Of a stretch of DNA of 64,000 nucleotides, positions 27,238 through 62,485 are shown in pieces. The notes below the pieces were generated by a model. That model was not told the DNA's origin and searched no databases. It worked only from the letters and a program-made list of their open reading frames with translations. The translations under genes and the position numbers were made by a program. The stretch covers positions 186,001-250,000 of the forward strand of contig MKTW01000012.1 in the NCBI GenBank assembly GCA_001898405.1, read 5' to 3'. Every line of letters begins with the position of its first letter. Positions within the stretch are counted from its first letter, which is position 1. Origin of the DNA: Sphingobacteriales bacterium 44-61 (GTDB lineage Bacteria; Bacteroidota; Bacteroidia; Chitinophagales; Chitinophagaceae).

Positions 27238-27936
27238 TTAACCTGAAAAGCTTTTCATCACCTGGTCCTTATAGTTAACACTTACAGGAATGGTTTTCTG
27301 ATCCGCAAGCACCAATTCACCCGTTCTCACAATCCTGATCTTGCTGACAGAAACGATATATGACTTGTGTGTGCGAATGAATTGGGAGGCCGGCAGCATT
27401 TCTTCCAGCTTTTTCATGGTTAAATGTACCAGGTATTGCCGTTGGGGAGTAAATATTTTCATATAATCCCTCGATCCTTCGATATAAAGAATGTCTGAAA
27501 ATGCGATTTTAAGCAGGCCTTCTTTTTCCTTGACTACAAGATGTTCATTCCCTTTTTCTGTTGACTCTTCTTTTGGAACGGTAACCATTGCCTGCTTCAC
27601 TTTATTTACTGCCTGTAAAAACCGTTCATAGGAAAATGGTTTTAAGAGATAGTCCGCCACATTCAGCTCATATCCCTGCAAAGCATATTCTGCATAAGCA
27701 GTAGTGAAGATCACTTTGGGCGGATTGGTCAGCGTTTTTAAAAATGCTATCCCATTCACTAATGGCATTTCAATATCGAGAAATACCAGGTCAATCGGGT
27801 GCTGTTCCAGTTTGGCAAAAGCTTCCATTGCATTGCGGCATTTGGCCACCAGGGTCAGGCCTTCTGTTTGAAGGATATATTTTTCCAGTATCTGCTGTGC
27901 TATCACTTCATCGTCTGTTATCAGGCATCTGATCAT
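27238..27936 (-). CDS. LytTR-family response regulator
   Basis: A 232-residue response regulator. The receiver domain (about 1-120) starts MIRCLITDDE and carries the phospho-acceptor Asp in LVFLDIEMPLVNG (near 54). The LytTR DNA-binding domain (about 135-230) has the pattern FIRTHKSYIVSVSKI and VSVNYKDQVMKSF. Its gene starts with the ATGA overlap of the upstream histidine kinase stop, so the two are one operon. It should bind direct repeats upstream of its targets; a fitting pair of repeats lies in the divergent spacer 29049-29207. Confidence 0.93.
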   Translation of the reverse strand: MIRCLITDDEVIAQQILEKYILQTEGLTLVAKCRNAMEAFAKLEQHPIDLVFLDIEMPLVNGIAFLKTLTNPPKVIFTTAYAEYALQGYELNVADYLLKPFSYERFLQAVNKVKQAMVTVPKEESTEKGNEHLVVKEKEGLLKIAFSDILYIEGSRDYMKIFTPQRQYLVHLTMKKLEEMLPASQFIRTHKSYIVSVSKIRIVRTGELVLADQKTIPVSVNYKDQVMKSFSG

Positions 27937-29048
27937 TTCGTCAATGCTATTTTCAGGTTAACGGTATAGTGGGTGTCATCATGGGATATCTGCAGTTCAT
28001 GGCGACCCGGATAATATAATGCCAGCCGTTTTTGTACATTTTCTATTCCCACGCCTCCATACTTTGTTTTTTGCTGGGGCGTGGTTAAAATTACGCTATT
28101 GGATAAATGGAAGTGTAATTGAGATCCGGTAACGCTTAGTTTGCCTTCGATAAACCCACTGTCCATTATCCGGTGCGAACCGTGTTTAAAACTGTTTTCC
28201 AGAAAGGGGATCAGCAGTAGGGGGGCTATCGCCTGGTTATCGTTGCCTGAGTGTTCCACTATAAAAGAGATATTGGCTTGGGGATACCGCTTCTTTTCCA
28301 TCTCCAGGTAATTGTCCAGGAACTCAAGATCCTTCTCCAGCGTCACCTGGTTTTGCTGGCAATCGTACAGGATATACCGCATCATATTGGAAAGCCGAAG
28401 AATATAGGCAGGAGTATCCGGCTCTCCCGTAAGGCTCATGCCATAGAGGCTGTTAAGCGTATTAAAAAGAAAATGCGGATGAAGCTGCGCTTTCAGCGTT
28501 TCGAGTTGCAACACGAGATTGTCTTTTTCCAGGGCATGCTTTTTTTCTTCTGTTTCAAATGCATAACGCATGAACAGGACAGAGAAAAAGGCCAGCAGGT
28601 CTGTCAGTAATTCATTTATTTTAACGCCCTTTCCTCCCTGGGTATGCTGATACCAGGAATGCTCCATTTGATAAAACAGGTTCAGGGAGGCATTATGGTT
28701 GGTTTCCTGAAAAATATAACTCACTACATAATTGGACCATTGGGAAACAAAAATGAAATAGGCCAGGGTTACAAAGAATAACCATACATGCCATTTCTTT
28801 TTAAGAAAATAGGGGCCGATAAAACGATAGAAAGGCACAACATATAAGGTAATGGCAATCGAATACAATATCAGCTCCGGAAAAGGGAAATTAGTCCTTA
28901 AACGGGGAATATAAGGGTTGCTTGCATAAAGCGCATATTTATAAATGCATACATAAACAAACCAAACCAGTATCTCGTACACGGAAATGTAGCGCTTGAC
29001 CGGGATCTTTCTTTTAAACAGGTTCATGCCCAAAACTATCTCTTTCAA
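27933..29048 (-). CDS. LytS-type sensor histidine kinase
   Basis: A 371-residue membrane kinase with four N-terminal hydrophobic helices (about 20-155), then the His_kinase domain with the phospho-acceptor His in LHPHFLFNTLNSLYGMSL and the ATPase part ending KYGGVGIENVQKRLALYYPG. This is the family (PF06580) that usually pairs with LytTR regulators, as here. Signals are unknown: the sensor part is only membrane helices with short loops. The first residues may begin at ATG 29027, which is 7 codons into the frame. It is divergent from a TonB-dependent receptor gene. Confidence 0.92.
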   Translation of the reverse strand: MKEIVLGMNLFKRKIPVKRYISVYEILVWFVYVCIYKYALYASNPYIPRLRTNFPFPELILYSIAITLYVVPFYRFIGPYFLKKKWHVWLFFVTLAYFIFVSQWSNYVVSYIFQETNHNASLNLFYQMEHSWYQHTQGGKGVKINELLTDLLAFFSVLFMRYAFETEEKKHALEKDNLVLQLETLKAQLHPHFLFNTLNSLYGMSLTGEPDTPAYILRLSNMMRYILYDCQQNQVTLEKDLEFLDNYLEMEKKRYPQANISFIVEHSGNDNQAIAPLLLIPFLENSFKHGSHRIMDSGFIEGKLSVTGSQLHFHLSNSVILTTPQQKTKYGGVGIENVQKRLALYYPGRHELQISHDDTHYTVNLKIALTK

Positions 29049-29052
29049 GCGG

Positions 29053-29099
29053 TTTTGTCGAAATGGCTTTCGACAAAATCAGGTTTTCCTTCGACAAAA
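29053..29099. promoter_or_regulatory. Repeats with LytTR-like spacing in the divergent spacer
   Basis: TTCGACAAAA occurs at 29069-29078 and again at 29090-29099, exactly 21 bases apart, and its complement TTTTGTCGAA is at 29053-29062. Two direct repeats about two helical turns apart is the arrangement bound by LytTR regulators. The spacer separates the LytS/LytTR operon from a TonB receptor gene. Binding is inferred. Confidence 0.5.
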
Positions 29100-29207
29100 T
29101 AAAGGCTTCTTCATTATGCAGAAAGACTGTTGGCTTTGGACGAAGCAGCCTTTTTAATCCATCGTTCCGGTTGTTGCTTTGTTTCATCAACCACAAAAAA
29201 TAAAAAG

Positions 29208-31577
29208 ATGAAACACTTCAGCAAACTGTCCCTGCTTATCGCAATGATCGCTTTTCTTAACCAAAGTTCCATTGCACAATCTGTCAAAGGAATGGTAATA
29301 GATAGCCTTAGCCGCCAGGCCCTGGTCAATGCTTCTGTAAGCCTTAGCCAAAACGGGGCTATCCTGCATTCTTTAAACGCCACTAAAGGAGAGTTTGAGT
29401 TTTCCGGGCTCGATACCGCAAGTGTGTACAGGTTAAATATCCAGTATACCGGTTATCACAGCTTTGTGTTGGATTCTTTAAAAGCTGATCAGTCTTCATT
29501 GGTGATCAGCCTGGTGCCTGATCAGAAAGAAATAGCAGGTGTAACAGTAACTGCAAGCAAGCCTTTCATTGTGCAGAAAAATGATAGGATCGTGGTAAAT
29601 ATAGCCCAAAGCCCAATTGCGGCTGGTGGCAACGTATACGAAGCCGTCAAAAAAGCACCGGGTGTAGTGGATATACAAGGTTTGCAGTTTCGTGGCAAAA
29701 ACGTAACTGTTTATATTAATGATAAGCCTTCAAGACTGGGCGGCGAGGAATTGAAAACCTATCTTTCTTCCATGCCGGCCAATACGGTTGAAAGGATCGA
29801 AGTGATCCCTAATCCTTCAGCAAAATATGAGGCCTCCGGTGGCCCGGTGATCAATATCATTCTTGCCAAAAGCAAAGATCTTGGCACCAATGGGGTTTTA
29901 ACCACGGGTGCAGGCGCTGGTAAATATGGACGCTATAACGGCGGTCTCTCTCTGAATCATCGTAACGCAGGTATGAATGTTTATGGCAGCTATGATTACC
30001 AGCAGGTAAAAGTCAGCAATAAAAAAAGGGCCGACCGCTCTTTCAATAATCTTTACACCATCCATGACGAACAAGGTTCTATTGAATCAAGCGGTAGCCA
30101 CACCGCTAAACTGGGCATGGATTATACCATCAATTCACGCAGTAGCTTCGGTGGATTGGTCAGAGGTCTGTTTAGTGATAAAGACAGGGATATCAACAAC
30201 AGCTCGTTGGTAAGCACTGACTCGTCTTCCCTTGTGAGTAACGATAACCGCATCAATTTGTCTACTATTTCTGCTAACCTGTATTACCGCACCAGGCTGG
30301 GCAAAACCGGTGATCTGTCGCTCAACGCTGATTATTTCACTTACAATAAAGATTACAGTGATTATTTTATTACTCATTATTATGATAAGAATGGTGGAGA
30401 GTATGGGTCTCCTTATCTTCTCCGCTCCAATGCTCCTGCAAACAATCGCATCAAATCCTTTTCAGCTGATTACACTTTTTCTGCCGGCAATATCAGCTAT
30501 GAAGCCGGTTTGAAAGCTGTGCTTACCCGCACTGATAATAGTTCGGTATGGGAAAAGAATGAGAATGGTGCATGGGAAAATGATGAGTTGAAGAGTAACC
30601 GGTTTGTGTACAACGAAAATATTTATGCTGCTTACCTGTCCGCATCCCGCAGCATCAGTAAATTTGATCTGCAGGCTGGTCTCCGTATGGAATACACTGA
30701 TGCTAAAGGATATTCCGTGACGCTGAAGCAGGAAAATAAAAATAACTACGCCAGTCTTTTTCCCAGCCTTACGGTTTCTTATAACCTGTCGGAAAAGCAG
30801 CAATACAGTTTTTCCTATCGCAGAAGGATCGAGCGGTTTGGGTTTGATATCGTGAACCCTTTTATTGTATACCAAAACCAGTACGCTTATTACCAGGGCA
30901 ATCCGGATATCAAACCTTCTTATTCGCATAATTTTGAATTGGGCTGGACATATGGCAATGAATGGATGGCATCTGCTGAATATGGCCATTTCATAGATGC
31001 ACCTGCCGAAGTGTATAAGAAAAGTGATGATGGAACAGCGATGATCAACACATATGAAAACATTGCCAGTGCAGACCAGGTAATGCTCAATCTTACCTAT
31101 ACCAAACGCTTATTTAAGGGCAAACTGACTACCAGTAATTCACTGGGCGGTTTGTATGCGAAATATAATGCGCCTGAGAACACCGGATTGAGCAACGCTG
31201 CTACCAGTGCTTTTATCAGCAGCAGCAATATGCTGTCGTTGGGTGCTGCCTGGAAAGCGGAACTGTCTGCTTATTATTATTCACCTATGCGCATTGGAGC
31301 CTATGATATCAGGTCGCAGGTTTTAGCTTCTGCAGGTTTTTCCCGCACTTTGTTAAACAAAAAAGCTACACTTGGATTAAGCGTCTCTGATATTTTTAAC
31401 AGCGGCAAAATGCGTTATGGGGTGTCTTCTTACGGGGTGAAGGCATTTAATAAGAACATGCCGGAGACAAGGTTTGTTAAGATGACCTTTACTTACCGAT
31501 TTGGCAATAAAAATGTAAAAGCTGCAAAAAACAGGAAGACAGGCATTGATGATGTAAAGAACAGGATGGGAAACTGA
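29208..31577 (+). CDS. TonB-dependent receptor / outer membrane beta-barrel family protein
   Basis: A 789-residue outer-membrane protein. Signal peptide about 1-24 (ending SIAQS), carboxypeptidase-regulatory-like domain about 25-110, plug domain about 115-225 (QSPIAAGGNVYEAVKKAPGV, VYINDKPSRLGGEELKTYL), then a barrel of the OMP_b-brl_3 type (about 380-770). I chose ATG 29208 because the frame's earlier start at 29130 adds 26 non-hydrophobic residues before a perfect signal peptide. It has no SusD partner. Its divergent neighbour is a LytTR two-component pair. It meets the HTCS gene tail to tail with 14 bases between. Confidence 0.88.
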   Translation: MKHFSKLSLLIAMIAFLNQSSIAQSVKGMVIDSLSRQALVNASVSLSQNGAILHSLNATKGEFEFSGLDTASVYRLNIQYTGYHSFVLDSLKADQSSLVISLVPDQKEIAGVTVTASKPFIVQKNDRIVVNIAQSPIAAGGNVYEAVKKAPGVVDIQGLQFRGKNVTVYINDKPSRLGGEELKTYLSSMPANTVERIEVIPNPSAKYEASGGPVINIILAKSKDLGTNGVLTTGAGAGKYGRYNGGLSLNHRNAGMNVYGSYDYQQVKVSNKKRADRSFNNLYTIHDEQGSIESSGSHTAKLGMDYTINSRSSFGGLVRGLFSDKDRDINNSSLVSTDSSSLVSNDNRINLSTISANLYYRTRLGKTGDLSLNADYFTYNKDYSDYFITHYYDKNGGEYGSPYLLRSNAPANNRIKSFSADYTFSAGNISYEAGLKAVLTRTDNSSVWEKNENGAWENDELKSNRFVYNENIYAAYLSASRSISKFDLQAGLRMEYTDAKGYSVTLKQENKNNYASLFPSLTVSYNLSEKQQYSFSYRRRIERFGFDIVNPFIVYQNQYAYYQGNPDIKPSYSHNFELGWTYGNEWMASAEYGHFIDAPAEVYKKSDDGTAMINTYENIASADQVMLNLTYTKRLFKGKLTTSNSLGGLYAKYNAPENTGLSNAATSAFISSSNMLSLGAAWKAELSAYYYSPMRIGAYDIRSQVLASAGFSRTLLNKKATLGLSVSDIFNSGKMRYGVSSYGVKAFNKNMPETRFVKMTFTYRFGNKNVKAAKNRKTGIDDVKNRMGN

Positions 31578-61876: not shown

Positions 61877-62485
61877 TTATTTTACCCTTTTAATAACACA
61901 TCCCACAGATCTTGTGGTGGGTGTTGCGATGGATTTACCAGAAACCAATTCTTCAATGGCAATGCTCAGATGCTTCCTTGTTACCTGGTCGGCTGCATTG
62001 GCATTATCATCAATAGCGCCATGGTAAACCAGCTTATTGTTTTTGTCGAACAGGAATACTTCAGGGGTGCGGGTAGCGCCAAAAATATCGGCCATGGCAG
62101 AATTGTTGTCAACCACATAGCTGAAGTTGTAGCCCTGCTCTTTGGCATAAGCCTGCATATCAGTATAGGAGTCGCCCTCATTCCTGGAAGCTTCATTCGG
62201 GTTGAGGAGTATGACCCCAATATTCTGGCTGCTGGCCAGCTTAGCTGCTTCAAGGGTACGGCCCTGGTATTTCTTTACAACCGGGCAGGTATTACAACTG
62301 AACATTACCATTAACCCATTTTTTTTCATCGCATCCTTAAAGGATACTTCTTTACCGCTGATGTCTTTCATCTTCGCATCAGCGTTAGGCAGGCTGGATC
62401 CAATGGGAAGAGGGTCTGTTGCAGTCCGGAATGCCATAAAGGCTATTGCTGCGAGAGGGATGGCGGCAATGAGTATTTTTTTCAT
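61877..62485 (-). CDS. Thioredoxin-family (peroxiredoxin-like) exported protein
   Basis: A 202-residue protein with an N-terminal membrane helix or signal (about 3-19) and a thioredoxin/AhpC-like fold. The redox motif is MVMFSCNTCPVVKKYQ (CNTC, near 64-67), and GATRTPEVFLFDKNNKLVYHGAID shows the cis-Pro region. The C-terminal TRSVGCVIKR with a lone Cys (near 196) may act with the CNTC pair. This family is common in Bacteroidota and related to a group of thiol-disulfide enzymes; the client is unknown. Confidence 0.87.
   Translation of the reverse strand: MKKILIAAIPLAAIAFMAFRTATDPLPIGSSLPNADAKMKDISGKEVSFKDAMKKNGLMVMFSCNTCPVVKKYQGRTLEAAKLASSQNIGVILLNPNEASRNEGDSYTDMQAYAKEQGYNFSYVVDNNSAMADIFGATRTPEVFLFDKNNKLVYHGAIDDNANAADQVTRKHLSIAIEELVSGKSIATPTTRSVGCVIKRVK

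Follow-up and report, generated by a model that had tools for sequence, protein, structure and literature searches.

A probable four-half-site LytTR operator lying back to back between a histidine kinase-regulator operon and a TonB-dependent receptor-like gene in a Chitinophagaceae bacterium

What purpose is served by a ten-base repeat that occurs three times in the short spacer between a histidine kinase (HK) gene and a divergent gene for a TonB-dependent receptor-like protein? The locus lies in a window of 64,000 nucleotides (the whole stretch of contig MKTW01000012.1 of Sphingobacteriales bacterium 44-61 that was analysed), and the 180-bp spacer separates the start of the HK gene on the minus strand (29027) from that of the receptor gene on the plus strand (29208). 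From the spacing of the repeats, the initial annotation had proposed that a phosphorylated LytTR regulator controls the receptor and perhaps its own operon. Our analysis indicates that the repeats are very probably DNA sites by which a LytTR-type two-component regulator turns on its own genes and, via a second pair in the spacer, the receptor. The features of the locus are the following.

27238..27936, minus strand: response regulator with receiver (PF00072) and LytTR (PF04397) domains, Pfam match
27933..29027, minus strand: histidine kinase (HK), PF06580, Pfam match
29031..29038, minus strand: predicted HK -7 box, TAGTTTTG, 3 bases before the ATG, proposed from the TAnnTTTG consensus
29053..29062, plus strand: third copy, inverted, TTTTGTCGAA, genus-specific and probably accessory
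29069..29078, minus strand: HK-facing half-site, proximal to the HK promoter, TTTTGTCGAA, kept in 22/22 orthologous spacers
29090..29099, minus strand: HK-facing half-site, distal, TTTTGTCGAA, kept in 22/22 orthologous spacers
29114..29123, plus strand: receptor-facing half-site, distal, TTATGCAGAA, fixed offset and 21-bp spacing in relatives
29135..29144, plus strand: receptor-facing half-site, proximal, TTTGGACGAA, fixed offset and 21-bp spacing in relatives
29174..29181, plus strand: predicted receptor -7 box, TTGCTTTG, 29 bp past the proximal half-site
29208..31577, plus strand: outer-membrane beta-barrel / TonB-dependent receptor-like protein, PF14905 and PF00593, Pfam match

The divergent operon does encode a LytTR regulator, as had been claimed: Pfam identified there a receiver-LytTR gene (E-values of 2.4e-20 for PF00072 and 5e-23 for PF04397) plus a kinase. 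The regulator contains a FIRTHKS stretch, similar in its orthologues, which fits the FhRhHRS motif given in PMC4227749. The three repeat copies are also where the initial annotation had put them (29053, 29069 and 29090), with the 21-base separation confirmed; TTCGACAAAA stands at 29069-29078 and 29090-29099 on the plus strand, and inverted at 29053-29062. When read in the HK direction, the pair is TTTTGTCGAA-N11-TTTTGTCGAA, and its 10-base repeats with 11 bp between them have the format of LytTR sites, which are 9-11-base repeats with 11-13 bp between (PMC4847170). The single 10-mer is common, with 7 matches at one mismatch allowed against 5.87 expected in the 64-kb window and a fourth exact copy at 62041-62050. 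At least two copies within the 180-bp spacer were found in 0 of 20000 Markov-1 resamplings, and the search of the 5.58-Mb genome that the initial annotation had suggested returned the exact pair, with 8-14 bp allowed between the copies, only at this locus (reversed-pattern control, 0). The repeat cluster is genuine and beyond chance.

We searched 394 genomes of the family for HK orthologues at a cut-off of E<=1e-80 and found a match in 20, with an identity of 42-69% outside the source genome; the regulator adjoins the kinase in 20/20 loci, with 49-100% identity. All 20 genomes have two TTTYRTCGAA half-sites upstream of the kinase that jointly match in at least 18 of 20 letters, a score that was reached in 2 of 8000 resampled spacers (Markov-1; eight spacers, 1000 times each). 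The consensus had been formed by eye, with 13 of the 20 genomes unseen at that point. When loci L075 and L078 are added, the pair is present upstream of the HK in 22/22 genomes, spaced by 21 bp in 19 and by 20 bp in 3. In these counts L073, L074, L076 and L077, whose coordinates coincide with those of G160, G075, G030 and G197, were each counted once, L079 (26%) was left out of the orthologue set, and G007 (HK 37%) stands outside it, though a similar pair is present there. Conservation in orthologous spacers was one of the tests on which the initial annotation had staked its prediction, and the 21-bp pair is indeed retained upstream of the HK orthologues.

The position of the pair is as regular as its sequence. 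Distances counted by script over the 22 loci showed that 18 have a full TAnnYTTG -7 box starting 27-30 bp past the proximal half-site, that three (G339, G257 and L078) have a partial one (5/6 letters) at 27-28 bp, and that G290 has no recognisable -7 box after the half-site pair. The pair would therefore serve primarily to activate the HK-regulator operon. If the -7 box spans -12 to -5, the placement reported in PMC9723704 for a flavobacterium, and the distance is 28 bp, the half-sites would occupy about -50 to -41 and -71 to -62, just upstream of the -35/-33 region where LytTR operators are positioned, and this placement, with start sites predicted from the -7 box, would be that of an activator. 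We also observed that only 3 bases separate the predicted HK -7 box TAGTTTTG from the ATG (window 29025-29038), and the HK mRNA therefore probably has little or no leader; the corresponding gap is 5 bases in G001, G160, G075 and L075. Leaderless mRNAs make up only 5.5% of the total in a mapped flavobacterium (PMC9723704).

A second pair, absent from the initial annotation, faces the receptor. On the plus strand, 14 bases past the strong pair, we found TTATGCAGAA-N11-TTTGGACGAA (29114-29144), with its half-sites 21 bp apart, followed after 29 bp by TTGCTTTG. This layout was first noticed by eye in relatives and then tested by sliding the HK-side consensus over 90 offsets and three spacings in five sequence subsets, and offset 14 with spacing 21 was the best in 5/5 subsets. 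The mean score there was 14.1/20 for 22 sequences and 14.9/20 for the 14 receptor-linked ones, against a mean of 6.3 (sd 1.5) over positions; a permuted consensus did as well in 0 of 2000 cases, and L075 and L078, both outside the sliding test, scored 13/20 and 15/20 at offset 14. Since the second pair stands at one offset with the same geometry, each promoter possesses a pair of its own, and the receptor is more likely served by this second pair than by the one noticed initially. An intergenic region in which each of two promoters has its own LytTR pair recalls the agr layout, a resemblance in arrangement and not a sign of agr membership.

It could be argued that the strong pair serves the HK-regulator operon and that the neighbouring receptor is unregulated, a reading that we consider unlikely. 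The pair is constant at the HK promoter whatever lies across the spacer: among the 22 loci the divergent neighbour is a receptor in 16 (in three of them, G323, L075 and L078, assigned from reading of the translation only), an erythromycin-esterase-like gene in five (G030, G339, G290, G257 and G200) and a PF00144 serine-hydrolase-like gene in one (G108), and the pair is found beside these six non-receptor neighbours as well. Moreover, the receptor-facing pair is degenerate, matching in 7 and 8 of 10 letters in the source genome, and it is weak in G200 (6/20) and at the kinase locus of G030 (10/20), both of which have the esterase-like neighbour. However, regulation of the operon only leaves the fixed offset and geometry of the second pair unexplained, and it fits poorly with what is found at genes that lie away from the kinase. 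Indeed, the full four-half-site array is kept at an unlinked receptor in G030 and at unlinked esterase-like genes in G108 and G281. At the relocated arrays of G030 and G108 the upstream gene is co-directional, which leaves the kinase-facing pair without a divergent gene to control, while in G281 a small divergent ORF lies beside the relocated array. The relocated arrays could in part be inherited relics, and those of G108 and G281 may represent one event, since the two esterase-like genes come from one genus. The more distant unlinked receptor of G257 (39%) has no site.

The genomes that have a receptor and no HK bear on the same question. The site is absent from all three informative receptors of HK-less genomes (G004, G345 and G192), as is predicted if the receptor is a target of the regulator; G118 was uninformative, as its receptor match starts at residue 144 and the upstream DNA reads as coding. 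These three receptors (L194, L223 and L229) have other loose repeats, e.g. GGTTCGTCCT / TGTTCGTGCA, ahead of the receptor -7 box and at the same two positions relative to it, as if another LytTR regulator had taken them over. Esterase-like homologues (E<=1e-20) occur in 9/24 genomes searched, that is, in 9/20 with the kinase and 0/4 without it; five are divergent from the kinase, two come immediately after the receptor gene at the kinase locus and two are unlinked. Pfam assigned PF05139 to the genes of G257, G108 and G281 (3/3), and the others rest on protein match. The partner genes, receptor, erythromycin-esterase-like and serine-hydrolase-like, hint at small-molecule uptake and hydrolysis.

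Taken with the promoter geometry, these comparisons largely support both controls that the initial annotation had proposed and reverse their emphasis. Self-control becomes the main reading and no mere "perhaps", because the noticed pair is fixed at the kinase's own promoter; control of the receptor is upheld by the array kept at a receptor unlinked to the kinase, and more likely runs through the second pair than through the noticed one.

The initial annotation had rested its prediction on spacing, the repeat being unlike the classic consensus, and this spacing turned out to be over-represented in general ahead of LytTR operons and of genes for homologous kinases. We surveyed 131 regions, namely 49 LytTR operons of the source genome and 82 homologous kinases of relatives, the latter drawn from part of the listed HK matches; the index operon, its orthologues L044, L045 and L046 and the LytTR match C2:540084 (one of 51) stand outside this count. 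Direct repeats above a fixed score were found at 21 bp in 27/131 regions, whereas 34 other spacings averaged 1.29 regions and none exceeded 5. The count of 27 includes related paralogues and the neighbouring operons L081/L096, which are not independent, and some regions that are probably chance, such as L157, where the repeat lies inside a reading frame. A LytTR match (E<=1e-5) lies close by in 79/82 of the relatives' HK regions, and without the other three (L055, L153 and L184, all among the 27) the count at 21 bp is 24/128. Spacings of 20, 22, 31, 32 and 42 showed no enrichment. Ordinary promoters had 21 bp in 3/88; with two G281 operator regions included, this control gave 5/90 at 21 bp and 0-4 at other spacings. 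A perfect 10-base repeat at 22 bp, GTGTACGGAA, was seen in one paralogue, about 130 bp upstream of the kinase gene at L084 (G000 C19).

With 51 LytTR domains in the genome, the pair might instead be bound by another LytTR paralogue than the adjacent regulator, and a subset of paralogue promoters does have the TCGAA core in common with the present site. We regard this as highly improbable, because the pair goes with the HK-regulator pair in 22/22 genomes (regulator adjacency checked in 20/20) and the paralogue operons mostly have different repeats of their own, e.g. TCTGCCAACC, TTTGTCCCTG and GTTTTGCCTC. Three paralogous HK-regulator operons (L260, L263 and L264, in G236, G108 and G030) are preceded by a 21-bp pair whose half-sites resemble TTTAATCGAA. 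The divergent gene beside that pair is thioredoxin-like (PF00578) in G236, and those of G108 and G030 look similar.

A regulon reading from the pattern alone was rejected, since genome-wide matches with two mismatches stayed at the background set by control matches (12 against 11, and 79 against 71 in a second search); the claim made here thus rests on position and conservation and not on pattern alone. Ten matches had zero mismatches: eight are HK operators, one belongs to the G108 esterase-like gene and one is unexplained, an operator-like pair between two genes at G257 C1:2733670-2733700 (L253) with no evident link to the system. Among the part of the 79 that was inspected, the one- and two-mismatch matches L261, L262, L265, L266, L267 and L270 had no evident link either.

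The third, inverted copy forms a near-perfect dyad with the proximal half-site, and the inverted repeat at 29053-29078, with a loop of 4-6 bases, might suggest that an unrelated repressor has a palindromic operator here, or that the RNA folds into a hairpin. This reading has very little left in its favour, as the inverted copy is found at the equivalent place in only 2/22 orthologous spacers (G000 and G001, both of this genus), lies upstream of the predicted HK transcription start and is followed by no T run on the plus strand. We take the copy as probably accessory, in view of its presence in 2/22 spacers. An artefact of DNA curvature, in which phased A/T runs two helical turns apart would need no specific protein, can be dismissed almost outright: the half-sites do contain T or A runs at such a distance, but the TCGAA core is conserved with its G and C, spacings of 20, 22, 31, 32 and 42 are not enriched, and several paralogue repeats, e.g. 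TCTGCCAACC and GTTTTGCCTC, are not A-tract-like.

The reading that we favour, with a probability of about 0.78, is that the spacer is a back-to-back four-half-site LytTR operator activating both the HK-regulator operon and the receptor. The kinase presumably phosphorylates the regulator encoded beside it, and the regulator would bind immediately ahead of the HK promoter, at the strong 21-bp pair (29069-29099), activating the HK-regulator operon in a positive feedback. It would also bind the weaker 21-bp pair (29114-29144) ahead of the receptor promoter and activate the receptor, probably with the assistance of the strong pair, each pair being bound head-to-tail. The model rests on the sequences, their conservation, the fixed two-way geometry, the retention at relocated targets and the 21-bp enrichment; binding, activation rather than repression and phosphorylation are proposed by analogy with the LytTR systems described in PMC4847170, PMC6193735 and PMC4227749, and cooperativity is presumed as well.

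Switches of this type are known from other bacteria. In the agr system of Staphylococcus aureus, the promoters P2 and P3 diverge and P2 drives AgrA's own operon. As in the present locus, a LytTR regulator (AgrA) has a direct-repeat pair just upstream of each of two promoters within one intergenic region (PMC4227749); unlike agr, the locus has another half-site sequence, a Bacteroidota-type promoter and an outer-membrane receptor as its second target, and no peptide-signal genes were seen among the listed ORFs beside it. The LytTR regulatory systems (LRS) likewise have operon-specific direct repeats of differing sequence and near-constant spacing upstream of their own promoter, with positive feedback (PMC6193735). 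However, an LRS consists of a LytTR protein and a membrane inhibitor, whereas here the receiver-LytTR regulator is partnered by a histidine kinase (PF06580) and has a second target on the far side of the spacer. Escherichia coli also has a comparable pair, YpdA/YpdB, and the YpdB site has an 11-bp spacer. This pair also joins a LytS-type kinase to a LytTR regulator, which recognises a 10-base direct repeat, GGCATTTCAT, but it has one target gene, yhjX, and an unrelated half-site (PMC4847170). We did not find a mapped operator for a Bacteroidota kinase-LytTR pair in the open-licence PMC papers searched; the nearest precedent is the set of repeats proposed for Bacteroides LRS-like operons, one of which has two repeats of 11 bp, separated by 11 bp and followed by a TATCTTTG box (PMC6193735, Table 3).

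In the source genome (G000), five of the ten listed receptor homologues (15 matches in all) directly adjoin a LytTR regulator or a homologous kinase (C10:395541, C9:229650, C7:41727, C1:142538 and C12:215208), and a kinase-LytTR pair with an OMP_b-brl_3 receptor looks like a recurrent module. The odds seem about even that the array represents a portable LytTR switch of the Chitinophagaceae, which stays with its relocated targets and is one of many paralogue-specific 21-bp repeats. The present locus yields a concrete candidate operator, a candidate regulon made up of its own operon, the receptor and the esterase-like gene, and a simple rule by which many LytTR systems could be decoded, namely direct repeats spaced by 21 bp ahead of a -7 box. 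If the portable switch is real, dozens of orphan LytTR systems in the Bacteroidota could have their operators read from nothing but sequence and matched to DNA-contact residues.
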